From: Stenotrophomonas maltophilia
GTDB lineage: Bacteria > Pseudomonadota > Gammaproteobacteria > Xanthomonadales > Xanthomonadaceae
DNA: 64,000 bases
Direction of reading: 5' to 3'
Assembly (NCBI RefSeq): GCF_006974125.1
Contig: NZ_CP037858.1
Location: 434,001-498,000 of the forward strand
Below, piece after piece: positions 8,108 to 41,265 of the stretch. The position numbers and the translations under genes were made by a program. Position 1 is the stretch's first letter. The number at the start of each line of letters is the position of its first letter. The notes under the pieces are model-generated. The model made no database searches. It saw only the letters and a list, made by a program, of their open reading frames with translations, and was not told the origin of the DNA.

Positions 8108-8631
8108 GGATGGGCACCCACGTTGAGCGCCATCACGATGTTTCCGGAAATCCGTGCCGCCGGCATGTTCGCATCCCCTGTGCGTGTCAGTTGCAGCTGC
8201 TTCAGTTCGATGGCCGGGTCGGCCAGCAGCGGCAGCAGCCAGTTCCATAGCGCGTCGGCGGGCACCGCCTGCACCTGCAGGTGCCAGCGCCCGTCGCGCG
8301 CTTCGATATGCAGGCCGTCGGCAAGGCCGGCGGTCCTGATGCCATCGCGCAGCCCGGCCAGTGTCGGGTGCTGGCCCTGCGCCTGCTGCTGGCGCTCGCG
8401 GGCGCGCAGCAGCGGTGCCAGTAGGCGGGACTGCGCCTGCAGCCGGGGTAGCTCGGCCTGCCAGTGCGTACGCTGCTTCAGCAGGGGCTCCAGCCACAAC
8501 GACCACAGACCCGCCACCAGCAGCGCCACCACCATCACCCACAGCATCAGCCGGTCGCGCGGTGGCAGGCGTTGCCAGCGCAGCTGCAGGCCCGCCAGCC
8601 CCTCGCCCAGCCGTAGGGTGCGGGTCGTCAC
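8104..8631 (-). CDS. gspM: Type II secretion protein GspM-like
   Basis: 175 residues, GTG start overlapping the gspL stop. It has a short cytoplasmic N-terminus, one membrane segment (about 29-48, LMLWVMVVALLVAGLWSLWL), a helical stretch and a small periplasmic domain ending QLQLTRTGDANMPAARISG. This layout is that of GspM, which pairs with GspL. Assignment rests on architecture and position between gspL and gspD; the sequence itself is poorly conserved in the family. Confidence 0.85.
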   Translation of the reverse strand: MTTRTLRLGEGLAGLQLRWQRLPPRDRLMLWVMVVALLVAGLWSLWLEPLLKQRTHWQAELPRLQAQSRLLAPLLRARERQQQAQGQHPTLAGLRDGIRTAGLADGLHIEARDGRWHLQVQAVPADALWNWLLPLLADPAIELKQLQLTRTGDANMPAARISGNIVMALNVGAHP

Positions 8632-9791
8632 TGTCCAGCTCCGCTCACCCGCAGGTGTCCACCAGCTTCGCGCGCCAGTTGCAGGCCCTGTGCCTGCACC
8701 GCCTGCTGCCAGTGCTCAAGCCGCTGCGGATCGTCGGCCAATGCCTGGGCATCGGCATCCAGCTCCATGTCCAGCTGCCCGGGTTGGTAATGCAGGCTGC
8801 GCACCTGCCCTGCCAGCTCCGGGACCGCCTGCAGCGTGCTGGCAACCTGACGCTGCAGCACCGGCAATGGCGGCGCCGGCGGTGGCACTGCAAGTGCTCG
8901 CCTCGCCTGCAACACCGGGTCCACCACATCGGTGATCTCCGGGAAGCGCGCGCTGAACTGCCGTGCCATGTCCTGCTGCAGCGCTTCACCCTCGATCCGC
9001 CAACGCGAGACCTGCAGCTGCAGGCCGAGTGCAGCCAGCAGCACTGCTGCCAGTGCCAGGCCGATCGCCAGTCGCGGTGCTTGCCGGCCTGCGCCGGGCA
9101 GCGGCAATGACCAGCCTGGCAAGGGGCCACAGGCCTGCTGTTCATGCGTGACGGCGGTGGCCGGCAGGCTGTCCGGCCACGTCTGCGGCACACTATCGAT
9201 CCACTGCACGGCCTGCACGCCGGCCTGTTGCAGGCGCACGGCCAGCGCCTGCATCACCGCACAGGCGTCACGTCCGCCATACCATTGAACGAAAGCCCGA
9301 TCGCGCCCGCTGCGTACCAGCAGGTGCTCGCCGCTGACCTGCAGCGTGGCATGGCCGTCCTGCCAAGGCAGCAGCAGCGGCGTCGGATACAGTGCCTGCA
9401 GCCGCAGGGCACACGAAGCCAGCAGCTGCTGCGCCTGCACTATCGCCTGCTGGCCGAGCCAGGCCACCGGAACCGTGCCGTCTGCCGCCTGCGCACCGTG
9501 GGCCAGCGCCACCTCCTGCAGGTCATCCAGCAGCATCGCCTCCACCTCACCCTGCAGCGCCGACTGCAGGCGGCGCCCGGACAGCGGCGGCAGCTGCAGT
9601 TCCAGCAGGATCAGATCCTGGGGATCGAGGCAGGCCAGCACCCCGGCCTGTGGATGGCGGCGCCCCAGCACAGCCAACGCTTCGCGGCCGTGGGCCTGCA
9701 TGCCCCCCTTGTGCAGCAGCGCCCACTCGACCTCGCTGTCGGCGCGCAGGTATTCCAGTGGCGGCAGGCGCACCCTCAGCTGCACGCTCAT
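8628..9791 (-). CDS. gspL: Type II secretion protein GspL
   Basis: 387 residues from ATG 9791 (overlaps gspK stop as ATGA). The first about 235 residues form the actin-like cytoplasmic domain that binds GspE; a membrane segment lies near 245-265 (LAIGLALAAVLLAALGLQLQ), then a periplasmic ferredoxin-like domain. GspL links GspE to the platform and to GspM. The cytoplasmic part contains LLELQLPPLSGRRLQSALQG, a typical GspL signature region. Confidence 0.92.
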   Translation of the reverse strand: MSVQLRVRLPPLEYLRADSEVEWALLHKGGMQAHGREALAVLGRRHPQAGVLACLDPQDLILLELQLPPLSGRRLQSALQGEVEAMLLDDLQEVALAHGAQAADGTVPVAWLGQQAIVQAQQLLASCALRLQALYPTPLLLPWQDGHATLQVSGEHLLVRSGRDRAFVQWYGGRDACAVMQALAVRLQQAGVQAVQWIDSVPQTWPDSLPATAVTHEQQACGPLPGWSLPLPGAGRQAPRLAIGLALAAVLLAALGLQLQVSRWRIEGEALQQDMARQFSARFPEITDVVDPVLQARRALAVPPPAPPLPVLQRQVASTLQAVPELAGQVRSLHYQPGQLDMELDADAQALADDPQRLEHWQQAVQAQGLQLAREAGGHLRVSGAGQ

Positions 9792-10693
9792 GCACCGATC
9801 CTCGTCCATACGCGCTGCACACGCACGCTGTCGTCGCGGTACTCGCGCCAGATCAGCGCGCGGAAGTCGACCGTACTGCCATCGGCCTGCACCTGGCCGA
9901 GGGCGAGGAACCATTCGCTATGGATGCCAAGCGGCACTACGGCCATCTGTGCGTCGCTCAGTTGGAGTCGATGGGCGATGTCGCCGCGGTTCAGCAGCCA
10001 TTGGCCGCCGTCACGTTCACCGAGCAGCGCCCGCAGGCGCGCCGGTTCTACACTGGGTACGACGGCCTGCAGCACGCTGATGTCACTGGTATTGGCATTG
10101 ACCAGGGTCTGCGCCGGCAGCACCACGGTCCGCCGTGCCAGCGCCTGCAGTGCCACCGGATCGGCGCCGGGAAGGGCCTGCTCGATCATGGCGTCACGCG
10201 GCAGCGGCGCCTGCGCCTGGATGTCGCCATCGCGCAGGCGTGCCTGGATATGGTCCGCCGCGGAGGCACAGGCACCCTGCCCCAATCCCTGCCCGGTGCA
10301 CAACGCAACGAAGGCGCGTCGCGCCTCCGGGTCCACCTGACCATGGGCCAGCAGATTGCGCAGGTTGAACATTGACTGGGCATCGACCAGCTGCAGCTGC
10401 ACCGGTAACGGTGCCTGCAGCTGCAAAGGACGCGCCCAGCGCCCGCCACGCACCGTGGTCAACTGCTCGCGCACATCCTCTCGCAGCTGCTGCGCTGCAC
10501 GCTCCAGCGTTGCGTCCACGGCCATGCGCACCTGTGCGCGCAGCTGGTCGCCACGCAGCGCACGCAGCTGGGCCGACTGCCGGGTCAGCAGTGCCGTGGC
10601 AATCACCGCCACCAGCGCCACCACCAGCAGGGCAACGATTACCGCCATGCCACGTTGACGGACACTCGAAACAGAACGCATCCGGGCTGACAT
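9788..10693 (-). CDS. gspK: Type II secretion minor pseudopilin GspK
   Basis: 301 residues. A prepilin-like N-terminus (RQRGMAVIVALLVVALVAVI) is followed by a large globular domain with two helix-hairpin regions (LVNANTSDISVLQAVVP is characteristic). GspK caps the pseudopilus tip, normally together with GspI and GspJ, which are not encoded in this cluster. It starts 9 bases after gspG. Confidence 0.93.
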   Translation of the reverse strand: MSARMRSVSSVRQRGMAVIVALLVVALVAVIATALLTRQSAQLRALRGDQLRAQVRMAVDATLERAAQQLREDVREQLTTVRGGRWARPLQLQAPLPVQLQLVDAQSMFNLRNLLAHGQVDPEARRAFVALCTGQGLGQGACASAADHIQARLRDGDIQAQAPLPRDAMIEQALPGADPVALQALARRTVVLPAQTLVNANTSDISVLQAVVPSVEPARLRALLGERDGGQWLLNRGDIAHRLQLSDAQMAVVPLGIHSEWFLALGQVQADGSTVDFRALIWREYRDDSVRVQRVWTRIGA

Positions 10694-14109: not shown

Positions 14110-14790
14110 TCATGGAAGGGGCGCACGCCGGCCACAGTCGTGGTCGGTGCCGGAAGGACGGATCTGCAGTGTTACCGGCTGTGGCAGCGCGGCGGCCTCG
14201 GTCGCCAGCACCAGGCCCTGCATCGCCTGCAGCAGGCGTGCATCGCGGCGATCACTGCCACTGCCGGACAGCAGCTCGGGCCGGCTCACCTGACCCGCGC
14301 CGTCGATGCGGAAGCGCAGCGTCGCGGCATAGCGGCCGGGCGCGATCTCCGGGTCGTCACAGAACACCGCACGCAGGCGCTGCTGCAGCCCGCCGTAGCG
14401 ACGCCGACGCTCGGTATCGGGAAGATCGACGCCAACAACGGGTTCGGCGACGGAGGACATGCCCCGGCGCAGCACCACGCGCTGCTCGCCGATAACCTCG
14501 GCCTCGATACCGGAGTCCTGCAAGAGCATCCGCAGTGCGGGCAGCGGCGGCAGGCTGGCGCGCAGCGCATGGCTGCTGCGGCCCGCGGCAAGATCGCCCG
14601 GGTACATCACCGACCACCCGCTGATGACGCTGAAGCGCTCGACCGCCTGTTCCAGCGGCTGCGCGGGGATGTCGTAGGCATGAACACCATCCTGCGCGGC
14701 AGCGGCAAAGGACAGCAGCAGCCATGCGGCGATGGCCACCTTCCAAGTTCTGACCGCATGGTGTCCATTCAGCCCCCTGACGTAGAACAC
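14110..14790 (-). CDS. Barrel-less signalling protein: STN domain plus TonB C-terminal-like domain (VreA-like)
   Basis: 226 residues from a GTG at 14790; the start is uncertain (a CTG at 14772 follows a strong AGGGGG). After a signal segment (VAIAAWLLLSFAAAAQ) comes an STN domain (HAYDIPAQPLEQAVERFSVI, then LPALRMLLQDSGIEAEV). The last about 85 residues (RYAATLRFRIDGAGQVSRPE, then SDRRDARLLQAMQGL) resemble the TonB/TonB-C fold. No beta-barrel is present. Normal signalling receptors carry an STN domain on a TonB-dependent barrel; this one ends in a TonB-like domain, as I recall for VreA. It probably acts in the periplasm on the FecR protein. First gene of the island. Confidence 0.8.
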   Translation of the reverse strand: MFYVRGLNGHHAVRTWKVAIAAWLLLSFAAAAQDGVHAYDIPAQPLEQAVERFSVISGWSVMYPGDLAAGRSSHALRASLPPLPALRMLLQDSGIEAEVIGEQRVVLRRGMSSVAEPVVGVDLPDTERRRRYGGLQQRLRAVFCDDPEIAPGRYAATLRFRIDGAGQVSRPELLSGSGSDRRDARLLQAMQGLVLATEAAALPQPVTLQIRPSGTDHDCGRRAPLP

Positions 14791-15095
14791 ATGACCCTCG
14801 GCAGCGACAGCAGCTGCAGTGGACGCGCACCACGACCGGAACCCCGGCCCGCGCGCGACCAGCAAGCGGGCTCAAACCGTACCGGGGCCACATGTCATTG
14901 CGATGACCGCCGCCCACAGCCTGCCGTCGAGGCAGGCTCGGTAAAGCCAGTCATGCATCAGGAATCAATGAATCGAACAGACATGATCATCTGCGCACGG
15001 GGTCGGATCACGTGCCGACCCGAACGTGTCGACCAAGGTCGACACCCACCAGGAGCAGCTCGTGCCGTTCCGACAGATCGTGGAAATCTGTCGAA

Positions 15096-19264: not shown

Positions 19265-20071
19265 CTACATCGGCACGCCCACGATCACGCTCGACGCCTT
19301 GAACAGCACCGTCGCCGCGGCGCCCTCCTGCAGCTCCAGCGCTGCTGTGCTGGCCCGAGTGATCACCGCCACCACGCTGCAGCCATGGCCGATATCCACC
19401 ACCACCTCGTCGTTCACCGCGCCCTCGGTGATCCGCTCCACCGTGCCGGCGAACTGGTTGCGTGCCGAGTAACGCGCCCCCTCACCCTGCGCCACGATCA
19501 CCGACGAGGCCTTCACCAGCGCGTAGGCCGGCACGCCCACCGCCAGGCCCAGCGATTCCACGCTGCCATGGGTGATGGTGGCGACCAGCGCGAGGCCCGG
19601 CGCCACTTCAATCTGCACTTCATCGTTCACTGCGCCGGTGGCCAGCCCACTGACCCGGCCATGGAACTGGTTGCGTGCACTGGTGATCATGCCGATTCTC
19701 CGGATCAGGGCCAGATCCTCGTCCAGCCCAGGGGTGGCCTGCAGCGACTGCAGGAACGTACGGTGCGCGCGCTCGACCTCCTCGAACCGGGCGATCAGCT
19801 GGTGGCCGCGCTCGGTCAGTCGCGCACCGCCACCACCGCGGCCGCCCACACTGCGCGCGACCAGCGGCTCGCCGGCCGCGGTGTTCATCGCGTCCACTGC
19901 GTCCCAGGCGTTCTTGTAGGTCATGCCCATGCGCTTGGCGGCCTGGCTGATCGAGCCACAGGCGTCGATCAGGCCCAGCAGCGCGAAGCGTCCGCGGCCA
20001 CCCAGGCTCTGACCGGCAATGCTCAGCCACAGGTTGCCCTGCAGCTCCAAAGGCGGTTCGGCCTCGCTCAT
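19265..20071 (-). CDS. modE: Molybdate-responsive regulator ModE
   Basis: 268 residues from ATG 20071. The N-terminal LysR-like winged helix reads GGRGRFALLGLIDACGSISQ, then AAKRMGMTYKNAWDAVDAMN, a ModE signature. Two molybdate-binding (TOBE/Mop) repeats follow (SARNQFHGRVSGLATGAVND and SARNQFAGTVERITEGAVND). ModE with molybdate represses uptake genes. The gene is divergent from a TonB receptor whose start is preceded by a ModE-type palindrome. Confidence 0.96.
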   Translation of the reverse strand: MSEAEPPLELQGNLWLSIAGQSLGGRGRFALLGLIDACGSISQAAKRMGMTYKNAWDAVDAMNTAAGEPLVARSVGGRGGGGARLTERGHQLIARFEEVERAHRTFLQSLQATPGLDEDLALIRRIGMITSARNQFHGRVSGLATGAVNDEVQIEVAPGLALVATITHGSVESLGLAVGVPAYALVKASSVIVAQGEGARYSARNQFAGTVERITEGAVNDEVVVDIGHGCSVVAVITRASTAALELQEGAAATVLFKASSVIVGVPM

Positions 20072-20135
20072 CGTGCTCGTTTCCCTGCGTTTCGCGCGAA
20101 CGGCCAGTGTACGGCGTCGCCCCCCTGCACCGGGC

Positions 20136-20149
20136 TTGATATGGATCAA
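20136..20149. promoter_or_regulatory. Perfect FNR/ANR box between modE and the TonB receptor
   Basis: TTGAT-ATGG-ATCAA matches the FNR consensus at all ten positions. Its centre is about 112 bases before the receptor ATG and about 71 bases before the modE ATG, so it could serve either unit. It implies that molybdenum uptake responds to loss of oxygen. Confidence 0.8.
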
Positions 20150-20211
20150 GGTGGCCGCGCCGACCAGCAACGAGAATCCCCGGGTCGGTCATCAAGTTGA
20201 CCCCTGCCAAC

Positions 20212-20235
20212 CGTTATATCATCTTGGATATAACG
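20212..20235. promoter_or_regulatory. ModE operator in front of the TonB-dependent receptor
   Basis: CGTTATATC-ATCTTG-GATATAACG: perfect 9-bp half-sites with a 6-base spacer, the same layout and core as the E. coli ModE operator at modA. It ends 19 bases before the receptor ATG, so bound ModE would block transcription. A TTGACC at 20197-20202 may be the -35 element. Confidence 0.88.
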
Positions 20236-20254
20236 AACCCGAGGACTCACGAGG

Positions 20255-22240
20255 ATGCGTACCTGTCGTTTCGTTCTACCCCTGTCCGCCCTGCTGCTCC
20301 CGCTTGCCGCCACTGCGGCCGACGCCACCTCGCCGCCCCCGGTGTTCACCCTGGGCACGATCGACGTGCATGCCGCGCGCGGCACCTCGCCCACCGTCGC
20401 CGAACGCAGCCTCGATGCCGAACGCATCCAGCAGCTCGACCGCACTACGGTCGGTGATGCGGTCAGCGTATTGCCTGGCGTGAGCCTGGCGCGCAACTCG
20501 CGCAACGAGGACATGGTCTACCTGCGCGGCTTCGACGCACGCCAGGTGCCGGTATTCCTCGACGGCATCCCGCTGTACGTGCCCTATGACGGCTACGTGG
20601 ACTTCGGCCGCTTCACCACCTTCGACCTCGCCGAGATCCAGGTCGCCAGCGGTGGCGCGTCGCTGTTGTACGGGCCGAACATCCTCGGCGGTGCGATCAA
20701 CCTGGTCAGCCGCCGCCCGGAACGTGCGCTGGAAGGCGACGTGCGGCTGGGCATCGCCGAGGGTGGCGAGCGCAAGGCAGCGGTCAACCTCGGCGGGCGT
20801 CGTGGCGACTGGTACTTCCAGCTCGGTGCGTCGATCCTGAAGGCCGATGAATTCCCGCTGCCGAAAGGCTTCGTCGACTACAAGCGCGTGCCCACCGATA
20901 CCGGCAAGGACCGCCGCAACGCCTCGCGCGACGACCGTCGCCTGTCGTTCAAACTGGGCTATGCCCCGCGCGAGGGCGACGAGTACGCGATCGGCTACGC
21001 GCGCCAGGACGGCGAGAAGGACAACCCGGTCTACACCGGCACCGCGCGCAGCGGCATCCGTTACTGGCGCTGGCCGTGGTGGGACAAGGACAGCCTGTAC
21101 TTCATCGGCAACACCCGCCTGGGCGAGCACACCACGCTGCGCACCCGCGTCTACCGCGATACCTATGGCAACGGACTGGACGCCTACACCGACGGCACCT
21201 ACCAGGTGGCGATGGACAACAGCAGCTTCCCCAGCATCTACGATGACCGCACCGTGGGCGGCTCGGTGACCCTGGCCACCACGGCGCTGCCGCGCCAGGA
21301 ACTGCAGTTCGCGATCCACTACAAGGAAGACCAGCACAGCGAGCGCAACCCGCACTCGCCGACCAAGGACTTCCGGGATGTGACCACGTCCGTGGCGATC
21401 GAGGACCGCATCGCGCTGACCGACACCTCGCACCTGCGCGTGGGCATCGGCCATGACCGCCGCGACGCCAAGCGCGTGTACTTCTGGCCGACCGGCAGCA
21501 CCGATGCCACCAATGCAGTGCTGGAGTACGTGCAGCAACTGGCGCCGGACCAGCAGTGGTATGCAAGCGCCGCGCGGCGCACGCGTTTCCCGACCATCAA
21601 GGATCGCTACTCCGCGCGCATGGGCGCGGCGCTGCCCAACCCGGATCTGAAAGCCGAGCATGCCACCCACCTCGAAGTGGGCCTGCGTGGCCGCTGGTGG
21701 GAAGGCGGCCAGCTGCAGGCGGCGCTGTTCCAGAGCCGTATCGATGACCTGATCCAGAACGCGGTGGTGGCCTCGCGCGAATGCGGCGGCAGCACCTGCA
21801 ACCAGGCGCAGAACATCGGCAAGGCCCGCCACCAGGGTGTCGAACTGGGCCTGCGCCAGCGCATCGGCGACGACTGGGACCTGCAGACCAGCTACACCTG
21901 GCTGCGCCGCACCAACCTGGAAGACCGCAGCGTGGCCCTGCTCGACAGCCCGCGCCAACGGCTGTTCATGGCGGTGGGCTGGCAGTTGCTGCCGCAGTTG
22001 AAGCTGCAGGCCACGCTGGAAGCCGAACAGGGCCGCAAGGTCAGCTACGCCGATGCGGCACGCCCGGTGCGCGACCTGCCCGGCTATGGCATCACCGGCT
22101 TCAAGGCCAGCTGGAGCCCGCGCGAGGCCTGGGATGTCGACCTCGGCGTACGCAACATCGGTGACAAATGGTACGAACTGGCCGACGGCTACCCGATGCC
22201 GGGCCGCACCTGGTTCGCCAATGCCAACTGGAGGTTCTGA
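20255..22240 (+). CDS. TonB-dependent outer-membrane receptor, probable molybdenum-compound importer
   Basis: 661 residues. Signal peptide (VLPLSALLLPLAATAAD), TonB-box-like FTLGTIDVHA, plug domain (VSVLPGVSLARNSRNEDMVY, DGIPLYVPYDG, GGASLLYGPNILGGAINLVS) and a 22-strand barrel ending in the aromatic NANWRF. There is no STN signalling domain. General homology is to siderophore and vanchrobactin-type receptors, but the ModE operator and following genes indicate molybdate, tungstate or a chelate of them. Substrate is inference. Confidence 0.88.
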   Translation: MRTCRFVLPLSALLLPLAATAADATSPPPVFTLGTIDVHAARGTSPTVAERSLDAERIQQLDRTTVGDAVSVLPGVSLARNSRNEDMVYLRGFDARQVPVFLDGIPLYVPYDGYVDFGRFTTFDLAEIQVASGGASLLYGPNILGGAINLVSRRPERALEGDVRLGIAEGGERKAAVNLGGRRGDWYFQLGASILKADEFPLPKGFVDYKRVPTDTGKDRRNASRDDRRLSFKLGYAPREGDEYAIGYARQDGEKDNPVYTGTARSGIRYWRWPWWDKDSLYFIGNTRLGEHTTLRTRVYRDTYGNGLDAYTDGTYQVAMDNSSFPSIYDDRTVGGSVTLATTALPRQELQFAIHYKEDQHSERNPHSPTKDFRDVTTSVAIEDRIALTDTSHLRVGIGHDRRDAKRVYFWPTGSTDATNAVLEYVQQLAPDQQWYASAARRTRFPTIKDRYSARMGAALPNPDLKAEHATHLEVGLRGRWWEGGQLQAALFQSRIDDLIQNAVVASRECGGSTCNQAQNIGKARHQGVELGLRQRIGDDWDLQTSYTWLRRTNLEDRSVALLDSPRQRLFMAVGWQLLPQLKLQATLEAEQGRKVSYADAARPVRDLPGYGITGFKASWSPREAWDVDLGVRNIGDKWYELADGYPMPGRTWFANANWRF

Positions 22241-22242
22241 AC

Positions 22243-22785
22243 ATGACCACGTCCCAGCCGCCACGCATCGCGGCCATCGTGCATGACCACAGCGGCGAAC
22301 CCGATGGCTTGCTGGCCGCATTCGCCGCACGCCAGCTGGCCGCCGGCCACCGCGTGCGCGGGCTGGTACACCTGCCACACGAACCCACCGCCAGCGGCAG
22401 GAAGCGCATGGCACTGATGGACGTGACCGATCCTGGTTCGCGCTACCCGATCATCCAGGCGCTGGGCCCGGCCTCCTGCGGCTGCAACCTGGACCCCGGT
22501 GGCATCGCCGATGCCAGCGTGGTGCTGCGCCGGGCCTTGCAGGACCATGCCGAGCTCGCCATCGCCAACCGCTTCGGCACGCTGGAATCGGAAGGCGGCG
22601 GCATGGCCGATGAGCTGCTGGCGCTGATGCTGGCCGGCATCCCGTTGTTGACCGCGGTGAAGCTGCCCTACCTCGACGCGTGGCGCCAGTTCACCGGCGG
22701 CATGGCCATCGAGCTGCCCGCCGAGGACGCGGCGCTGCAGGCCTGGTGGGATGCCTGCCGCAACGCACCCGAGGCCGCAGCATGA
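22243..22785 (+). CDS. DUF2478-type protein associated with molybdenum uptake
   Basis: 180 residues, begins 2 bases after the receptor stop. The text IAAIVHDHSGEPDGLLAAFA and LAIANRFGTLESEGGGMADE fits DUF2478, a THEP1/P-loop-like family that I recall from molybdenum transport clusters. The N-terminus lacks a clear GxxxxGK loop (it has HSGEPDG), so nucleotide binding is doubtful. No signal peptide, so cytoplasmic. Its stop overlaps the next gene start. The biochemical role is unknown. Confidence 0.75.
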   Translation: MTTSQPPRIAAIVHDHSGEPDGLLAAFAARQLAAGHRVRGLVHLPHEPTASGRKRMALMDVTDPGSRYPIIQALGPASCGCNLDPGGIADASVVLRRALQDHAELAIANRFGTLESEGGGMADELLALMLAGIPLLTAVKLPYLDAWRQFTGGMAIELPAEDAALQAWWDACRNAPEAAA

Positions 22786-23819
22786 GGCGGCGCGCCCTGC
22801 TGCAGGCGTTCGCACTGGCGCCGTTGCTGGTTGCCAGTGCCGAGCTGCTGGCGATGCCGGCGCAGCGCGTGTTGCGGCTGGGTGCGCCCAAGGCCACGCC
22901 CAAGCGCGTGTTCGCGGCCGGTCCGCCGGCTGCGGTTTTGCTCGCCGCCGTGGCACCCGAACGCCTGCTGGGCTGGCCGATGAAGGTCTCGCCCGACGCA
23001 CTGGCGCAGCTGCCGGCAGCGCTGCGCACGTTGCCGGTGGTCGGTCGCCTTGCCGGGCGCGGCAGCACGGTCAGTCTCGAGCGCCTGCTCGCGATGCAGC
23101 CGGATCTGGTGCTGGATGCCGGTGACTTCGATGCCAACTACCGCGACTCGGCCGAGCGGGTCTGGAAGCAGACCGCGATTCCCTTCGAACTGATTGCCGG
23201 ACGCCTGCCCGATCATCCGGCGCAGCTGCGCCACGTTGGCCGGCTGCTGGGTGTTGCCGCACGCGGCGAAGCGCTGGCGCAGGCGGCCGAGGCGCAGCTG
23301 GCACTGGTGCGTGAGGTGCTGGCGACGCGTCCCTCTGCGACGCGGCCCACCGTGTACTACGGGCGTGGCAGCGACGGCCTGGAAAGCGGCCTGTCCGGCT
23401 CGATCAACACCGAAGTCATCGAATTCTGTGGCGGCCGCAACGTGGCCGCCAGCGCCGGGGCCGGTGGCCTCGCCCGCGTGTCGTTCGAACAATTGCTGGC
23501 CTGGGATCCGGACGTGATCCTGACCCAGGATGCCGGCTTCGCCGCGCATGCGGCACAGGATCCGCGCTGGCGCGGCCTGCGTGCCGTGCGCGAACGTCGC
23601 CTGCATTGCGCACCGGTACTGCCGTTTGGCTGGCTGGATGGTCCGCCCGGTGTCAACCGCCTGCCCGGCCTGCCGTGGCTGCTGTCCAGGCTGCATCCGG
23701 GTGCAGTGCCCGCATTGGCGCCTGCCGCGCTGCGCGCGCGCATCGGTGCGCTGCATCAACTGCTGTGGGGCGAGCCATTGCCCGCCCAGCTTGCACGCAG
23801 CCTGGATGCGAACGCCTGA
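22782..23819 (+). CDS. Periplasmic metal-chelate binding protein (BtuF/FecB/MolA type) of an ABC transporter
   Basis: 345 residues from ATG 22782, overlapping the previous stop. The signal segment is RRRALLQAFALAPLLVASAE with a possible twin-arginine feel. Two Rossmann-like lobes are joined by a helix (TVSLERLLAMQPDLVLDAGD, FEQLLAWDPDVILTQDAGFA), the class III binding-protein fold used for siderophores, B12, haem and, in MolA, molybdate. It delivers ligand to the permease that starts 2 bases downstream. Confidence 0.88.
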   Translation: MRRRALLQAFALAPLLVASAELLAMPAQRVLRLGAPKATPKRVFAAGPPAAVLLAAVAPERLLGWPMKVSPDALAQLPAALRTLPVVGRLAGRGSTVSLERLLAMQPDLVLDAGDFDANYRDSAERVWKQTAIPFELIAGRLPDHPAQLRHVGRLLGVAARGEALAQAAEAQLALVREVLATRPSATRPTVYYGRGSDGLESGLSGSINTEVIEFCGGRNVAASAGAGGLARVSFEQLLAWDPDVILTQDAGFAAHAAQDPRWRGLRAVRERRLHCAPVLPFGWLDGPPGVNRLPGLPWLLSRLHPGAVPALAPAALRARIGALHQLLWGEPLPAQLARSLDANA

Positions 23820-23821
23820 GC

Positions 23822-24835
23822 ATGCGCACGCTTCCACGTTGGGCCTGGCATGCCGGTGGCTGGAGCCTGCTGCTGGCGATGCTGCTGCTGGCGTTCTCGG
23901 TCGGCCAGTTCCCGGTGCGACCGGCGGCGCTGCTGCACGCCATCGGCTGGCAGCTGTTCGGCATCGGCGAACCCAGCCCGCCTGCGGTGCAGGCCGCGCT
24001 CTGGCATATCCGCCTGCCGCGCGTGCTGGCCGCCGTGCTGATCGGTGCGGTGCTGTCGGCGGCCGGTGCGGCCTACCAGGCCATGTTCCGCAATCCGCTG
24101 GTGTCGCCGGACATCCTCGGCGTCTCCGCCGGTGCCGGCCTTGGCGCTTCGCTGGGCCTGTTCCTCGGCCTGCCGATGCTGCTGGTGCAGGGCATCGCCT
24201 TCGCAGGCGGCCTCGGTGCGGTGGGCCTGGTCTGCCTGGTGGCTGCGCTGGTACGGCGGCACGATCCGGTGCTGGTCCTGGTACTGGCCGGCGTCGCAGT
24301 GTCCGCGCTGCTCGGTGCCGGCATCTCGCTGCTGAAGCTGCTGGCCGATCCGTACACGCAGCTGCCCTCGATCACTTTCTGGCTGCTGGGCGGCTTGAAC
24401 GCGGTGGTCATCGACGACCTCAAGGTCACCGCGCCACTGCTGCTGATCGGGCTGTTGCCGCTGGTGCTGCTGCGCTGGCGGGTGAACCTGCTCGGCCTGG
24501 GTGATGAAGAGGCCAGCGCGCTGGGCGTGGCGGTCACCCCGCTGCGCTGGACGCTGATTGCCGCCGCCACGCTGTGCACTGCGGCGGCGGTGTCACTGGC
24601 CGGCATCATCGGCTGGGTCGGACTGGTGGTTCCGCATATCGCGCGGCTGCTGGTCGGCGCCGACTTCCGCCGCCTGCTGCCGGCCAGCCTGCTGCTCGGC
24701 GCCAGCTTCCTGCTCGCCGCCGATACGCTGGCGCGCACCCTGGCGCCAATCGAGCTGCCGCTCGGCATCCTCACTGCGTTCGTCGGTGTGCCGTGCTTTT
24801 TGCTGGTACTGGCGCGCAGCGAGCGTCGCCCATGA
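23822..24835 (+). CDS. FecCD/MolB-type ABC transporter permease
   Basis: 337 residues with about ten membrane segments. Family motifs: LPRVLAAVLIGAVLSAAGAA, YQAMFRNPLVSPDILGVSAG, and GIIGWVGLVVPHIARLLVGA. This type II importer family moves iron chelates, B12 or, for MolBC, molybdate and tungstate. Its stop overlaps the ATPase start. Confidence 0.92.
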   Translation: MRTLPRWAWHAGGWSLLLAMLLLAFSVGQFPVRPAALLHAIGWQLFGIGEPSPPAVQAALWHIRLPRVLAAVLIGAVLSAAGAAYQAMFRNPLVSPDILGVSAGAGLGASLGLFLGLPMLLVQGIAFAGGLGAVGLVCLVAALVRRHDPVLVLVLAGVAVSALLGAGISLLKLLADPYTQLPSITFWLLGGLNAVVIDDLKVTAPLLLIGLLPLVLLRWRVNLLGLGDEEASALGVAVTPLRWTLIAAATLCTAAAVSLAGIIGWVGLVVPHIARLLVGADFRRLLPASLLLGASFLLAADTLARTLAPIELPLGILTAFVGVPCFLLVLARSERRP

Positions 24836-25608
24836 GCACCGCCACACTGCTGCTGGAAGCACGCAGCCTGGCCATCGGCCATGCCGGCGTGGCACTGGGC
24901 GCGCCGTTTGCGCTGTCGGTACAGCCTGGCGAGGTGCTGTGCCTGCTTGGCCCGAACGGCTGTGGCAAGACGACTCTGTTCCGTACACTGCTAGGCCTGC
25001 TGCCTGCGGTGCACGGCGAGGTGGACCTGCAGGGCTCGCCGCTACGCGCGCATGATCGTGCCGCCCGCGCCCGCCGTATGGGCTATGTGCCACAGGCCGC
25101 GCCGTTGCCCTTCCCCTGGCGCGTGCGCGAGGTGGTCGCCATGGGCCGCGCCGCGCACCTGGGCCTGCTGGCGGCACCGGGTCGCGCTGATGAAGCCATC
25201 GCCGATGACTGCCTGCGCGAACTGGGCCTGCAGGCGCTGGCCGACCGCACCGTCACCACGCTCAGCGGTGGTGAGCGCCAACTGGTGCTGATCGCACGCG
25301 CACTGGCGCAGCAGGCGCAGTTGCTGATCATGGACGAACCCACCGCCAGCCTCGACTTCGGCAACCAGCTGCGCATCCTCGATACCGTGCGCCGCCTGGC
25401 CGATCGTGGCATCGGTGTGCTGCTGTCCACCCATCAACCGCAGCACGCGCTGCAGGTGGCCGACCGCATTGCGTTGATGTCCGCCGGCAGCCTGCAGGCG
25501 CTCGGCCCTGCCCGCGAGGTCGCAACGCCCGAACGCCTCGCCACCCTGTATGGCGTCGATGCCGCACGCGTCGCCGCCGCCCTGCCCGCTTCCGGAACTT
25601 CTACATGA
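24832..25608 (+). CDS. FepC/MolC-type ABC transporter ATPase
   Basis: 258 residues. Walker A GPNGCGKTTLFRTLLGLLPA, Q-loop VPQAAPLPFPW, signature LSGGERQLVLIARALAQQ, Walker B LLIMDEPTASLD and the switch His in LLSTHQPQHAL are all intact. It powers the permease encoded just upstream; the stop overlaps the methyltransferase start. Confidence 0.93.
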   Translation: MSTATLLLEARSLAIGHAGVALGAPFALSVQPGEVLCLLGPNGCGKTTLFRTLLGLLPAVHGEVDLQGSPLRAHDRAARARRMGYVPQAAPLPFPWRVREVVAMGRAAHLGLLAAPGRADEAIADDCLRELGLQALADRTVTTLSGGERQLVLIARALAQQAQLLIMDEPTASLDFGNQLRILDTVRRLADRGIGVLLSTHQPQHALQVADRIALMSAGSLQALGPAREVATPERLATLYGVDAARVAAALPASGTST

Positions 25609-26405
25609 GTACACCGCTACCGACCCCGATCGACCACAGCGCACGCTATCGCCAACACCTGCAGGCCTGTGGCTTCCAGGCCAAGCCGGCCAGTGCCTGG
25701 GACGCGCGTGCCGCACAGTCCAGCTGGAAGCGCCGTCACGACGACTACAGCGAGGCGTTCCTCGCCCGGCTTGATCTTTCCGGCGTGGCCACCGTGCTCG
25801 ACGTGGGCTGCGGCCCCGGGCTGCTGAGCCTGCCGATCGCCACGCAGGTCGGTCATGTGCATGCGCTCGACTACAGCACCGGCATGCTCGACGGCCTGCG
25901 TGCCGCCATCGCCCGCGACGGCGCTTCCAACGTCACGCCGTGGGCGCTGTCGTGGACCGACGACTGGCACGACGTGCCGCGCTGTGATCTGGCCATTGCC
26001 TCGCGCTCGCTGATGGTGGCGGATCTGGAGGCCGCGCTGCGCAGGCTGGATGCGCACGCCCGCCAGCGTGCCTGCATCACCTTCGCCACCGGTCCTCGGG
26101 CCGGCGTGCCGGAGTTGGCCGAGCTGCTTGGCCGTGATTGGGTGCCGATGCCCGACCACCGCTACCCGATCAACATGCTGCTGGACATGGGACGCGAGCC
26201 GCAGCTGGACTACCTGCCCGAGTCGGTGCGCGACGTCGCGCAGGATGCCGACGGCCTGGTGCGCCAGGCGGTGGAGCTGTTCGGTGCGTTGGATGCGGAT
26301 GAGGAAGCACGCGTACGTGCATGGCATGCGCGCTCGCCACAGCATCGTTTCGGCATGGCGCCGACGCGGCGCTGGGCGTTCATCCAGTGGGCGACGAACG
26401 GCTGA
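25605..26405 (+). CDS. Class I SAM-dependent methyltransferase
   Basis: 266 residues; the start overlaps the ATPase stop, so it belongs to the transport operon. The SAM motif I reads VLDVGCGPGLLSLPIA, motif II region VHALDYSTGMLDGL. An N-terminal helical extension of about 60 residues precedes the fold. It could methylate a molybdenum-binding small molecule or another target in metal uptake; there is no direct evidence for the substrate. Confidence 0.82.
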   Translation: MSTPLPTPIDHSARYRQHLQACGFQAKPASAWDARAAQSSWKRRHDDYSEAFLARLDLSGVATVLDVGCGPGLLSLPIATQVGHVHALDYSTGMLDGLRAAIARDGASNVTPWALSWTDDWHDVPRCDLAIASRSLMVADLEAALRRLDAHARQRACITFATGPRAGVPELAELLGRDWVPMPDHRYPINMLLDMGREPQLDYLPESVRDVAQDADGLVRQAVELFGALDADEEARVRAWHARSPQHRFGMAPTRRWAFIQWATNG

Positions 26406-26481: not shown

Positions 26482-27153
26482 TCAATTGCCAACGATGCGA
26501 CCATCCACTACACGCGCCACCTGCTGCCCAAACACGGCCACATCCTGCGGATCGTGGCTGATCAACAACAGCGGGATACCGGTCTTGTCCAGCACCGTCT
26601 CCAGCTCCTGGCGCAGGTGCTGGCGAAGATCATGGTCCAGCGCAGAGAACGGCTCATCCAACAGCAGAGCCTGCGGTTGCGTCACCAGGGCGCGCGCCAG
26701 TGCAGTGCGCTGGCGCTGGCCACCGGACACCTGGGAAGGCAGCAGATCGCCCACCGTGTCGATGCGGAATGCGTGCAACCACTGCTCCACCGCATCGAAG
26801 CGCTGACCGATCCGCGGATTCAACCACCCCTTCTCCAGACCGAACGCCACGTTCTGGCGCACGCTCAGGTGCGGAAACAGCGCGTAATCCTGGAACACGT
26901 AGCCCAACCGGCGGCACTGCGGCGGCAGATCCACACCGGTGGCCGCATCGAACAGGGTCTGTCCCTGCAGGCGCACATGGCCCTGGCCCGGCCGCAGCAG
27001 GCCGGCCACCGCCTTCAAGGTCAGGCTCTTGCCCGCGCCCGAGGGCCCGAACAGCACCACCTGGCGCTGCGTGCACTGCAGCGATACGTCCAACACGAAA
27101 TCCTGGCCGGCCGCCTGCAGGCGACGCTGCACCTGCAGGTCAAGCCACATCAC
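26482..27153 (-). CDS. modC: Molybdate ABC transporter ATPase ModC, short form without TOBE domain
   Basis: 223 residues; the usual ModC is about 350. Walker A FGPSGAGKSLTLKAVAGLLR, signature VSGGQRQRTALARAL and Walker B LLLDEPFSALD are intact, but the C-terminal molybdate-binding TOBE/Mop domain is absent. It would still energise ModB; regulation by internal molybdate through the ATPase (trans-inhibition) is probably missing. Its start overlaps the modB stop. Confidence 0.9.
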   Translation of the reverse strand: MMWLDLQVQRRLQAAGQDFVLDVSLQCTQRQVVLFGPSGAGKSLTLKAVAGLLRPGQGHVRLQGQTLFDAATGVDLPPQCRRLGYVFQDYALFPHLSVRQNVAFGLEKGWLNPRIGQRFDAVEQWLHAFRIDTVGDLLPSQVSGGQRQRTALARALVTQPQALLLDEPFSALDHDLRQHLRQELETVLDKTGIPLLLISHDPQDVAVFGQQVARVVDGRIVGN

Positions 27154-27823
27154 GCAGCTCCCGGCGACGTCCGCCCACCAGCCGTGCAGCCAGCAACAGA
27201 ATCACGATGCAGACCACCGAGGTCAGGATCACCAGCGCATTGGCCTTGCCGTCCTGGCCGGCCTGCACCGCCTCGTAGATGGCGATCGACAACGTCTGCG
27301 TTCGGCCCGGAATGCTGCCCGCCACCATCAACGTCGCGCCGAACTCGCCCATCGCGCGTGCGAACGCCAGCAGCAGGCCGGCGAGGATGCCGCGCCAGGC
27401 CAGCGGCAACGTGATGCGGAAGAACACCGCTGCTTCGGACACTCCAAGCGTACGCGCGGCCTGCTCCAGCTGACCATCCACTTCCTCGAACGCCGCGCGT
27501 GCCGGCTTGAACACGAGCGGCAGCGAAGCCACCGCCGCGGCGATCACCGCCGCCTGCCAGGTGAACACCAGGTTGATGCCGAACCACGACTGCAGCCACG
27601 CGCCGATCGGGCCGTTGCGACCGATCAGCACCAGCAGGTAATAGCCCAGCACCGTCGGTGGCAGCACCATCGGCAGGGTCAGCAGCGAATCCAGCAACTC
27701 ACGGCCGGGAAAGCGCCGCCGCGCCAGCAGCGCGCCCAGTGCCACGCCCAGCACCAGATTGATCGCGGTGGCCCAGCCGGCCACCTTCAGCGACAACCAC
27801 AGTGCGCTCCAGTCGAGATCCAT
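27150..27823 (-). CDS. modB: Molybdate ABC transporter permease ModB
   Basis: 224 residues (27823 start) with five to six membrane segments. The EAA loop reads EQAARTLGVSEAAVFFRITL, and GEFGATLMVAGSIPGRTQT is a ModB signature. It imports molybdate with ModA and ModC. Overlaps modC by 4 bases and follows modA by 3. Confidence 0.94.
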
Positions 27824-27826
27824 GCC

Positions 27827-28570
27827 TCAGGGATTGCCGAACCCGTGCTTGGCCAGGATCGCCTGGCCCTGTGCCGAACGCACGAAGGCGGTGAATCGCT
27901 TTGCTTCGCCGGGCTGCGCGCTGGCCTTGGTCACCGCCAGCGGATACGCAATGCGCCCCGCCACCGGCACCGCGAAGGCACGGCGCACCCGGTCGGGCAT
28001 CGCCTGTGCATCGGTGGCATAGACGAAGCCGGCGTCCACTTCGCCGCGCGCCACGTAATCCAGCGACTGGCGCACGTTCTGGGTGGTGATGGTCTTGCCC
28101 TGCACCGACGGCCACAGGCCCGCTGCTTCCAGCGCGCCCTTGGCATAGCGGCCGACCGGCACGCTGTCCGGGTTGCCCAGTGCGATGCGTTGCACGCCTG
28201 CACCGGCCAGGTCCTTCAAGGTACGTGGCGCAGCCTTGGCCTGCGGCGGCACCACCACCCACAGCGCATTCACTGCGAACACCTCGCGGGTACCGGCCGC
28301 CAGCAGGTCCTGCTGCTGGGCCTGGTCCATCGTGGCTTCGTCGGCCGACGCGAACACATCCACCGGCGCGCCGCGGCTGATCTGCTGCAGCAGTACGCCG
28401 GACGCGGCGAAGTTGAAGTCGACCTTGGTCCCCGGGTGCGCCTTCTCATAGGCGGCGCCCAGTTCGCGGAAGCTCTCGGTCAGGCTCGATGCCGCCGACA
28501 CCGTCAGGTCGGCCGCCCACGCCGGCACCGTGGCCAGCAGTCCCAGCAACAACAGTCCAGCTCGCTTCAT
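27827..28570 (-). CDS. modA: Periplasmic molybdate-binding protein ModA
   Basis: 247 residues from ATG 28570 with a signal peptide (MKRAGLLLLGLLATVPAWAA). Motifs LTVSAASSLTESFRELGAAY, NFAASGVLLQQI and GAPVDVFASADEATMDQAQQ are standard for ModA. It lies 19 bases after the FNR-type gene. No ModE palindrome was seen just upstream, unlike the TonB-dependent unit. Confidence 0.95.
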   Translation of the reverse strand: MKRAGLLLLGLLATVPAWAADLTVSAASSLTESFRELGAAYEKAHPGTKVDFNFAASGVLLQQISRGAPVDVFASADEATMDQAQQQDLLAAGTREVFAVNALWVVVPPQAKAAPRTLKDLAGAGVQRIALGNPDSVPVGRYAKGALEAAGLWPSVQGKTITTQNVRQSLDYVARGEVDAGFVYATDAQAMPDRVRRAFAVPVAGRIAYPLAVTKASAQPGEAKRFTAFVRSAQGQAILAKHGFGNP

Positions 28571-28589
28571 CGTCGGCTCCCGGCCAGGT

Positions 28590-29366
28590 TCAGTTCGGAT
28601 CGGATTCGTCGGCCACCGCCAGCGCCGCCAGGCGCTCGGGCTGCAGCAGCAGGATCTCACGCTGCTTCACCGCGATGATTCCATCATCGCTCAGGCGACG
28701 CAGCACGCGGCTGGCGGTTTCCGGCGCCATCCGCAGGTAATTGGCGATCTCGGTACGCGCCATCGTCAGGTTGAAGCGCGTGGCGGAAAAACCACGCCGC
28801 GCGTAACGCTCGGACATGTCCAGCAGGAACGCGGCCATGCGCTCTTCAGTACGGTGGTTGGCGGCCAGGGTAGCGACCTTGCCGATCTCCGCACTGAGCA
28901 GGCTGAACAGCTTGGCCTGCAGACCCGGCATGCGCGTGGCCAGCGAGCTCAGCTTGGGGAACGAGATGCGGCACAGGTGCACCGTATCCAGCGCCACCGC
29001 ATTGCAGGGGAAGCGCGAACCGTGGATCGCATTCAGGCCGATCACTTCGCCCGGCAGGCTGAAGCCCAGCACCTGCTCGTTGCCCTGGCTGTCATCGACG
29101 AAGGTCTTGACCATGCCCGCGCGCACCGCAGCAATCGAATCGAACGATTCGCCGGCGCGGAAGATGTAGTCACCTGCATGGAACGGACCGACATGGTCGA
29201 CCAGCACGTGCAGATCACCCAGTGCGGTCTTGTCGTAGCCCTGCGACATGCACGCGTCGGAAAACGCGCAGGTGCTGCAGAAGTGCAGCGCATCGCCGTC
29301 ATCGGCGGCGGCGGGGTTCGGTGTGGCCTGGCCGAGGCGGCCGTGCGAAGGCGGATTCGAAGACAT
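28590..29366 (-). CDS. fnr: FNR/ANR-type oxygen-sensing transcription factor
   Basis: 258 residues from ATG 29366. The N-terminal cysteines FCSTCAFSDACM and the internal Cys in RFPCNAVALD match the four ligands of the FNR [4Fe-4S] cluster. A cyclic-nucleotide-type beta roll follows and a helix-turn-helix with PETASRVLRR, whose E-x-x-S-R is the FNR DNA-recognition pattern (TTGAT-N4-ATCAA). It activates anaerobic genes when oxygen is absent. Boxes of this type occur at several units in the window. Confidence 0.95.
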   Translation of the reverse strand: MSSNPPSHGRLGQATPNPAAADDGDALHFCSTCAFSDACMSQGYDKTALGDLHVLVDHVGPFHAGDYIFRAGESFDSIAAVRAGMVKTFVDDSQGNEQVLGFSLPGEVIGLNAIHGSRFPCNAVALDTVHLCRISFPKLSSLATRMPGLQAKLFSLLSAEIGKVATLAANHRTEERMAAFLLDMSERYARRGFSATRFNLTMARTEIANYLRMAPETASRVLRRLSDDGIIAVKQREILLLQPERLAALAVADESDPN

Positions 29367-29377
29367 CGGGGCAAGAC

Positions 29378-30601
29378 TCAAGCGATGGCGGCCGCCGGCC
29401 GGAAGCATGCGGCCATCATACGCCACAGCAGCCGCCCTTCTTCGGCCAGCCGCAGTACGCGCCCATCCCAGTGTGCCCAGCCGCGCGCCAGCAACGGTGC
29501 CAATGCCGGCAGCTGCTCGGCGAAGCATTCTTCGAACGGTTCATCGTTGCGCCATTCGAAGGCAGCCGCATCGAGCGCGTGATCGCAGGCGATGCTCTGC
29601 GCCACCTCGGCCGCCAGTCGCTCGTCTTCGGACAGGATCAATCCGGCAGACACGCCCATGTGCCCAGCCTGCAGCCGCGCACGCCATTCGCCCAGTTCGT
29701 CCTCCAGGCGGTAGAACACCTCGCCGATCTGGCTGCAGGCGGACAGGCCAAGCCCGATGAAATCGCTGCGGTCGCGGCGTGGCGCGCCGGCCAGGTCACA
29801 ATGACGCTGGCCATCGCCCGGGCCATGCGGGTTGGGCAGGTCGCCGCGCTGATAGTGATCGCCACCGATCGGCTCGTAACCCGCTGCGCGCAGCAGGCGC
29901 CAGCTCTGCAGCCATCGTGCGGCCGAAGGATGTTCCGGCAGTGCGCACGGCGCCGGCAACAGGATGCGCTCGGGCGCTTCGGCCAGCACCTCATGCAGTC
30001 GTTCGATGAAGCCGGTGTCCTCGCTGCCGGGCACCCGCAACTGGTAGTAGCGCGCGGTAAAGCCGACCTGTCGCGCCTGCGCCAGCAGGGTCGGCCCGGG
30101 TGCATCGGCGCGATCGATCACGTTCAAACGGGTGCAGCCCACCGCACGCAGCTGCGCCGGTGACAGCGCACTACCCGCGTCCAGACGCACCTCCACCTGT
30201 GGCCGCGCCACCGTGCGCAGGTGCTGCGGCACCGCATCCAGCAGCTGGCCCAGCTGCGGCGGCGGCAGCGTCTCGGCCAGCCCCAGCTGCAGTACCATCG
30301 CCACTACCTCGCGATCTTCAGCCAGCGCGCCGGCCTGCAGGCGCAGGGCCAGCAGCAGGGTGTCCAGATACGCCTGCGCTGGCGCATCGCGTCCACCACG
30401 ACCAACCTGGAAGCCGAGCGTCAAGCCACGCGGGATCAGGTGCTCGTTGCTGGCGCGCACGGCGCCGCGCCACCCGCTTTCGCCAAAGCCGGTACTGAAC
30501 TGGTCAGCCGGCGGAAATAGCACGTGCCGGGGCTGCCGCAGCAATGCCGCCTGCAGCGCAGTGTCCTCGCTCTCGTCAACGTGGAAGCTCATGGCAGACA
30601 T
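29378..30601 (-). CDS. HemN-like protein lacking the radical-SAM cluster motif
   Basis: 407 residues, about HemN size. The N-terminal part (LFPPADQFSTGFGE) and C-terminal part (AAGYEPIGGDHYQRGDLP, DFIGLGLSACSQIG, ending RLLWRMMAACF) follow oxygen-independent coproporphyrinogen III oxidase. Where HemN has its CxxxCxxC cluster motif, this protein reads LTLGFQVGRGGRDAPAQAYL with no cysteine. It cannot carry out the radical-SAM reaction as such. It may bind porphyrin or serve as a regulator or haem-handling protein; unknown. Next upstream gene is narK; FNR starts 11 bases after its stop. Confidence 0.82.
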   Translation of the reverse strand: MSAMSFHVDESEDTALQAALLRQPRHVLFPPADQFSTGFGESGWRGAVRASNEHLIPRGLTLGFQVGRGGRDAPAQAYLDTLLLALRLQAGALAEDREVVAMVLQLGLAETLPPPQLGQLLDAVPQHLRTVARPQVEVRLDAGSALSPAQLRAVGCTRLNVIDRADAPGPTLLAQARQVGFTARYYQLRVPGSEDTGFIERLHEVLAEAPERILLPAPCALPEHPSAARWLQSWRLLRAAGYEPIGGDHYQRGDLPNPHGPGDGQRHCDLAGAPRRDRSDFIGLGLSACSQIGEVFYRLEDELGEWRARLQAGHMGVSAGLILSEDERLAAEVAQSIACDHALDAAAFEWRNDEPFEECFAEQLPALAPLLARGWAHWDGRVLRLAEEGRLLWRMMAACFRPAAAIA

Positions 30602-41251: not shown

Positions 41252-41265
41252 TTGATCTGGATCAA
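41252..41265. promoter_or_regulatory. Perfect FNR/ANR box upstream of narK-narGHJI
   Basis: TTGAT-CTGG-ATCAA matches the consensus at all ten positions. Its centre is about 103 bases before the narK ATG. This is probably the main anaerobic activation site of the nitrate reductase operon. Confidence 0.85.

Follow-up and report, generated by a model that had tools for sequence, protein, structure and literature searches.

A conserved cassette linked to ModE and FNR, predicted to import a molybdenum compound through a TonB-dependent receptor

In a 64,000-nucleotide stretch of a Stenotrophomonas genome (the window; the genome is a single contig of 4.55 Mb), we find a six-gene cassette that probably encodes a TonB-dependent importer of a molybdenum compound, most likely a molybdenum chelate, under the control of FNR and ModE. 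What we observe in the sequences is the gene order, the operator, the FNR box, their conservation, and the co-occurrence of the receptor with ModE. Porins are commonly assumed to be the route by which molybdate passes the outer membrane. An energy-driven receptor controlled by ModE would imply a form of molybdenum that is too large or too scarce for porins. The cassette gives the search for molybdophores in bacteria a concrete genetic handle.

A tightly packed cassette divergent from modE

The features of the cassette are collected in Table 1. All six genes, from the receptor to the methyltransferase, are separated by at most 2 nt or overlap, as in a tight operon: 2-nt gaps lie between receptor and DUF2478 genes and between binding protein and permease genes, and 4-nt overlaps join DUF2478 to binding protein, permease to ATPase, and ATPase to methyltransferase. 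A preliminary description of this DNA had placed the receptor translationally close to a DUF2478 gene, a FecCD/MolABC-type transporter and a methyltransferase, and divergent from modE; both statements hold. The 183 bases between modE and the receptor gene contain an FNR box and a 9-6-9 palindrome.

Table 1. Coordinates of the cassette, its promoter elements, its neighbours and related genes elsewhere (window positions unless a locus is named)
Feature	Position	Strand	Evidence
modE, molybdate-responsive regulator	19265..20071	-	Pfam HTH_1 (LysR-type HTH) and two TOBE/Mop stretches
FNR box TTGATATGGATCAA	20136..20149	+	perfect match; comparable sites in the corresponding position of relatives
Probable -10 element GAGAAT of a putative FNR class II promoter	20172..20177	+	AGAAT invariance, spacing to FNR box
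Predicted ModE-type operator, perfect 9-6-9 palindrome CGTTATATCATCTTGGATATAACG	20212..20235	+	pattern search, conservation
TonB-dependent receptor, 661 aa	20255..22240	+	Plug and barrel domains, model, fold matches, clade support 1.0
DUF2478 protein with a THEP1-like fold, lacking the usual Walker residues	22243..22785	+	
Periplasmic substrate-binding protein, BtuF/MolA-like	22782..23819	+	PF01497
FecCD/BtuC-type permease	23822..24835	+	PF01032
ABC ATPase	24832..25608	+	PF00005
Class I SAM-dependent methyltransferase	25605..26405	+	PF13649 and others
modC, modB, modA, ordinary molybdate transporter, convergent with cassette	26482..28573	-	domain/profile matches
FNR-type regulator	28590..29528	-	cNMP-binding and Crp HTH domains; PRK11161
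E. coli cassette with ModD and TonB receptor	L106:2416-8842; L112:4331-10757		upstream ModE box 16/16
PF00174 protein with Sec-like leader, P. aeruginosa, directly behind receptor	L107:8836-9384		

The modE product scores 135.3 bits against the Mop model TIGR00638 (cut-off 55) and 94.5 bits against TIGR00637, under the cut-off of 98.5. Among the downstream neighbours, modB is over its profile cut-off and modC under its own, and the FNR-type regulator reaches 182.2 bits against PRK11161, under the cut-off of 228. The narG gene of the same genome (G000:C1:469960-473661) also lies within the window, starting near position 39661 on the minus strand; a second perfect FNR box is found about 1.6 kb upstream of it, at 41252-41265.

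The pairing of a FecCD permease with a BtuF-like binding protein is that of a MolABC importer. The closest solved relative of the binding protein is not MolA: its best PDB match is 4pag (E 7.5e-32), and 4pag, 4ovk, 5gj3 and 4hn9 all outscore MolA (3psa, E 5.5e-9), the fifth-best match. For the DUF2478 protein, a first Foldseek pass gave no match below 0.001, and a second fold search led to THEP1. By eye, neither the Walker A GKT/S nor the Walker B acidic pair was seen in the window protein or in a 26-row alignment, at the motif positions that we take to be those of THEP1. Among the 11 window proteins scanned, no enzyme of siderophore biosynthesis was recognised, the methyltransferase being the only candidate.

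A single ModE-type palindrome in the genome

The perfect 9-6-9 palindrome that had been described ahead of the receptor is present, ending 19 bases before the receptor ATG, so that the receptor gene has a ModE-type operator in its promoter region. When up to three mismatches in 16 positions are allowed, it is the single match in the window (none in 100 shuffles) and the single match in the whole genome, against 77 matches to the receptor barrel family. ModE-type boxes were scored with the pattern CGNTATATA-N6-TATATANCG (16 positions, threshold at least 13/16), using the E. coli ModE consensus given in the accessible part of PMC545781. The operator scores 14/16, and its two misses are symmetrical. 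We also considered modABC as a second ModE target and set it aside, the best ModE-type score near the modA start being merely 7/16.

The box accompanies receptor relatives and the receptor accompanies ModE

Relatives were picked by receptor protein similarity alone. Set A comprises 22 loci with organism names; set B, drawn from genome samples, comprised 25 loci after two same-genus matches (the genome itself and G902) had been left out, and 24 once L031, a repeat of L009, was dropped, giving 46 distinct loci. Of these 46 loci, 30 have a box of at least 13/16 in the 1.3 kb ahead of the receptor homologue, against a background of seven such sites in 771 kb elsewhere of the same DNA. Many loci are closely related, so the counts are not independent and binomial figures are rough. 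In set A the box is found in 21 of 22 loci, the sole miss (L023) being a locus without upstream sequence. Set B has it in 9 of 24, or 14 of 24 at 12/16 or better; five of the 15 loci lacking a 13/16 box within 1.3 kb thus have one of 12/16, and the other ten (L032, L033, L034, L035, L059, L060, L062, L064, L074 and L075) have no site of at least 12/16 in that range. Four of these (L033, L059, L060 and L064) also lack a mod gene and a FecCD permease, although L059 and L060 nonetheless have a DUF2478 gene and a binding protein. Some box-less loci show palindromes with other spacing, which were excluded from the counts.

A match to modE, modA or modB occurs within the fetched stretch at 33 of the 46 loci. 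The window receptor itself shares 95 to 98% identity with its S. maltophilia and S. terrae counterparts. One genome, G812 (L051/L070), carries a receptor gene with one in-frame TGA, and its operator and neighbour genes were detected. At L012:8615-10788 the receptor match starts only at residue 69, and a 138-aa ORF lies just before it in another frame.

Co-occurrence was counted with cut-offs of E up to 1e-80 for the receptor and E up to 1e-10 for ModE (TIGR00637). In a sample of 299 genomes of the order, nine have the receptor and 51 have ModE; ModE is present in all nine receptor genomes vs 42 of the 290 others (Fisher p 6.5e-8, uncorrected for kinship). Within the genus (19 genomes), the four receptor carriers all have ModE and the 15 others have none. 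Nitrate respiration alone, which we considered as the link, shows a weaker association: narG occurs in 55 of the 299 genomes, 6/9 with the receptor and 49/290 without. The receptor is uncommon: the class sample has it in 7 of its 369 genomes, and a sample from the order of G224 in 14 of its 300. Control by ModE and FNR, and the link to molybdenum, are thus supported, as far as sequence can speak, well beyond the window.

A putative FNR class II promoter with a ModE box

The perfect FNR box claimed for the gap between modE and the receptor was found there, one of ten perfect FNR sites in the genome. In an alignment of Stenotrophomonas-type gaps (one row shortened), the ModE box and the sequence AGAAT stand out as invariant islands, AGAAT being invariant in six aligned sequences at a fixed distance from the FNR-type box. 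As part of a -10 element, AGAAT would place the start of transcription near 20184, and the centre of the FNR box then lies exactly 41.5 bases from the implied start in the window, L002-L010 and L070. The window therefore has the arrangement of an FNR class II promoter, a box at -41.5 together with a -10 element. At least four of the six bases of TATAAT are found at the exact spacing in the window, L002-L010, L012, L013, L070 and L071. Three Thermomonas-type loci have TATCAT, TATGCT or TATCCT at the FNR spacing, the -10 element is one base off in L011 and L016, and L015 matches at 3/6 only. L018 has an FNR-like site but no -10 element at the right spacing. Overall, an FNR-like site is found upstream of the receptor at 17 of the 46 loci (15/22 in set A, 2/24 in set B) and is absent from both Burkholderiales loci of set A.

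Together, this layout is the one expected of a promoter activated by FNR and repressed by ModE. In Stenotrophomonas, however, the first base of the operator lies about 29 bases beyond the inferred transcription start; a repressor bound there would have to block elongation or act on another promoter. The same position, and the fact that E. coli ModE activates some operons, could instead suggest that ModE activates here and that the system serves when molybdenum is plentiful. We consider this highly improbable, given that the ModE box covers the inferred start, the position of a repressor, in all six Thermomonas-type loci that have an FNR site (L011, L012, L013, L015, L016 and L071), and that in A. 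vinelandii the operon for molybdate transport is under repression by ModE, according to the accessible part of PMC9542535.

Related cassettes in E. coli, P. aeruginosa and on plasmids

A tblastn search of plasmid records yielded E. coli receptors at 33% identity. The E. coli cassette, sited between treA and ymgE, has the order binding protein, permease, ATPase, methyltransferase, ModD and receptor, with 43, 60, 41 and 32% identity to the window for the first four products. It occurs in 2,102 of 5,426 complete genomes (in 2,094 of them the match spans 80% or more of the query), and its promoter stretch alone occurs in 2,098 complete genomes; the treA-ymgE position of K-12 MG1655 lacks it. Compared with the E. 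coli consensus, the ModE boxes of five promoter copies that we read match at 16, 16, 15, 14 and 16 of the 16 positions, and the box lies 24 bases before the first start codon. In our judgement, an E. coli cassette with ModE boxes is the strongest independent evidence, at the level of sequence, for the proposed control, and it opens the question to experiment with a ModE that is already well studied. By eye, the E. coli binding protein (L106:2416-3438) starts with MSLTRRRFTQIL, a twin-arginine-like leader.

In P. aeruginosa CP109682, a receptor gene and a PF00174-type gene are flanked by a binding protein gene on one side and moaA-narIJHG on the other; a 14/16 box precedes the receptor start by 14 bases. 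Of six plasmid loci that we read, those of Azospirillum (L108), Paracoccus and Bartonella (L111) have no 13/16 box, the Paracoccus locus having one of 12/16, 192 bases ahead of the receptor. The Azospirillum and Bartonella homologues possibly have another cargo. A Methylorubrum plasmid (L109) has three sites of at least 13/16 in 18 kb; its receptor homologue (7773-9968) follows a 14/16 box, and the plasmid also carries a DUF2478 gene (14486-14998).

The receptor clade and the case for an iron cargo

Both receptor domains score above their cut-offs (PF07715, 65.7 bits; PF00593, 131.3 bits). The predicted model (pLDDT 85.4) has 22 long strands after the plug, as expected of a TonB-dependent receptor, and its fold matches are receptors of this type. 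The fold does little to discriminate the cargo, since BtuB, OprC, PqqU and siderophore receptors hardly differ as matches. In a tree of 20 of the receptors at hand and 30 of the other receptors of the Stenotrophomonas genome, composed without receptors of known cargo, the receptors of both cassette flavours (see below) cluster with those of E. coli and P. aeruginosa in a single group of 20 (support 1.0). Plug residues R83, E85, Q97, Y108 and R119, together with K255, Y270, P274 and W276, are each found in 19 or 20 of the 20 clade members and in 0 to 3 of the 30 paralogues; W273 (20/20 vs 4/30) and W271 (20/20 vs 14/30) are less exclusive. These clade-specific residues may mark a shared, charged and partly aromatic cargo.

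This cargo could be an iron-siderophore or other iron compound, with ModE merely linking iron supply to the demand of molybdoenzymes. Public records annotate the binding protein, and some of them the permease as well, as iron transport (for the E. coli binding protein, in the rows listed), and the receptor scores 152.5 bits on the siderophore model TIGR01783, although below the cut-off of 223.5; on the BtuB model TIGR01779 it reaches 122.6 bits, under a cut-off of 599.7. We nevertheless regard an iron cargo as very improbable in view of the ModE-type boxes conserved across several families, the neighbouring modE and modABC genes, and ModD in the cassettes of E. coli, L017, L022 and L057. Control by iron (Fur) was likewise set aside: no strong Fur-like site was found, the best match being 10/18 in the promoter and 12 in the window. 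A correction of the iron-transport annotation that the binding protein carries in many genomes is suggested.

Two cassette flavours and the nature of the molybdenum species

The clade comes in two flavours. The first, with a FecCD importer and a methyltransferase, is found in Stenotrophomonas, Burkholderiales (L017 and L022), L057 and E. coli; in addition, L017, L022 and L057 have ModD, and DUF364 genes are neighbours in L017, L021 and L022. The second, with a small exported PF00174 protein, is found in the Thermomonas-type loci (L011-L016 and L071) and in the P. aeruginosa record. A small protein of this family, a Moco-domain family, accompanies the receptor in 12 of the 46 loci and is adjacent in 11; its gene is the first after the ModE box in all seven Thermomonas-type loci, five of which have a modA or modB match. 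At L012, L013, L015 and L016 a gene for a SLAC1-type anion channel adjoins modABC.

Judged by eye, the Thermomonas-type PF00174 protein has what we take to be a Sec-type and not a twin-arginine leader, and it keeps a cysteine at what is presumably the place of the molybdenum ligand. With a leader of the Sec type, the protein could only be loaded with its ligand in the periplasm. It is conceivable, though unlikely, that what the clade imports is not plain molybdate but an organic molybdenum species, with the molybdenum cofactor and a Mo-pterin fragment as possible candidates. If so, E. coli and other Gram-negative bacteria would possess a nutrient uptake route specific to organic molybdenum.

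Cargoes of tungstate, vanadate or their chelates must also be weighed. ModE senses tungstate too. According to the accessible parts of two papers, MolA binds both molybdate and tungstate (PMC4031551), and the DUF364 family, present next to the three loci named above, is tied by genome context to the transport of molybdenum, tungsten and vanadium (PMC2954201). We find such a cargo very improbable: narGHJI lies near the cassette in the window and in the P. aeruginosa record (there with moaA), which points to molybdenum enzymes. The cargo is most likely a molybdenum chelate (a molybdophore), more so than free molybdate, tungstate or another molybdenum-containing molecule.

For a molybdenum chelate, the direction of regulation and the parts played by the individual proteins might be as follows. 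At low oxygen, FNR would activate the class II promoter, and when molybdate is plentiful, ModE bound to the operator would block it. When molybdenum is low, the receptor would carry the compound over the outer membrane, and the MolA/BtuF-like protein and the FecCD-type ABC importer would bring it into the cell. The methyltransferase and the DUF2478 protein may act on the chelate or release the metal from it, for use by nitrate reductase and other molybdoenzymes. The molybdenum-linked uptake under ModE and FNR put forward in the preliminary description thereby gains support from the conserved boxes, the co-occurrence with ModE and the E. coli cassette. Weighing against it are the loci of set B and the three plasmid loci that lack a 13/16 box, narG in only six of the nine receptor genomes, FNR-like sites at only 17 of the 46 loci, and the place of the Stenotrophomonas operator downstream of the inferred start.

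Comparison with known systems

Among the literature matches listed, from which subscription papers and regulon databases mostly fell outside, we recognised no test of a ModE-controlled TonB receptor, and met neither the conserved ModE/FNR layout, nor the breadth of the clade, nor the E. coli cassette. A close known system, Achr_39320-39290 of Azotobacter chroococcum, is described from annotation, and a bifunctional ABC operon for iron and molybdenum has been proposed in A. ferrooxidans (accessible part of PMC2631029).

The nearest tested importer that we found is MolBC-A of H. influenzae (HI1470-1472), for which the accessible part of PMC4031551 is our source. Like the cassette, it combines a BtuF-like binding protein with an importer of the BtuCD/FecCD type, and molybdate-dependent repression of molB is reported; unlike the cassette, it has no receptor named for it there. 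MolBC-A is described as a low-affinity transporter of free molybdate, which counts against reading the cassette as an importer of a chelate.

ModE-ModABC shares the type of regulator and the metal with the cassette but has no outer-membrane step, and in the window no ModE-type box accompanies the start of modA. Compared with BtuB-BtuFCD and the siderophore TonB-FecCD importers, the window cassette is set apart by its ModE operator, by the clade-specific plug and loop residues, and by a receptor whose score stays below cut-off for both the siderophore and the B12 receptor model. We place the cassette not as a proven molybdophore system but as a variant of TonB-FecCD metal import.
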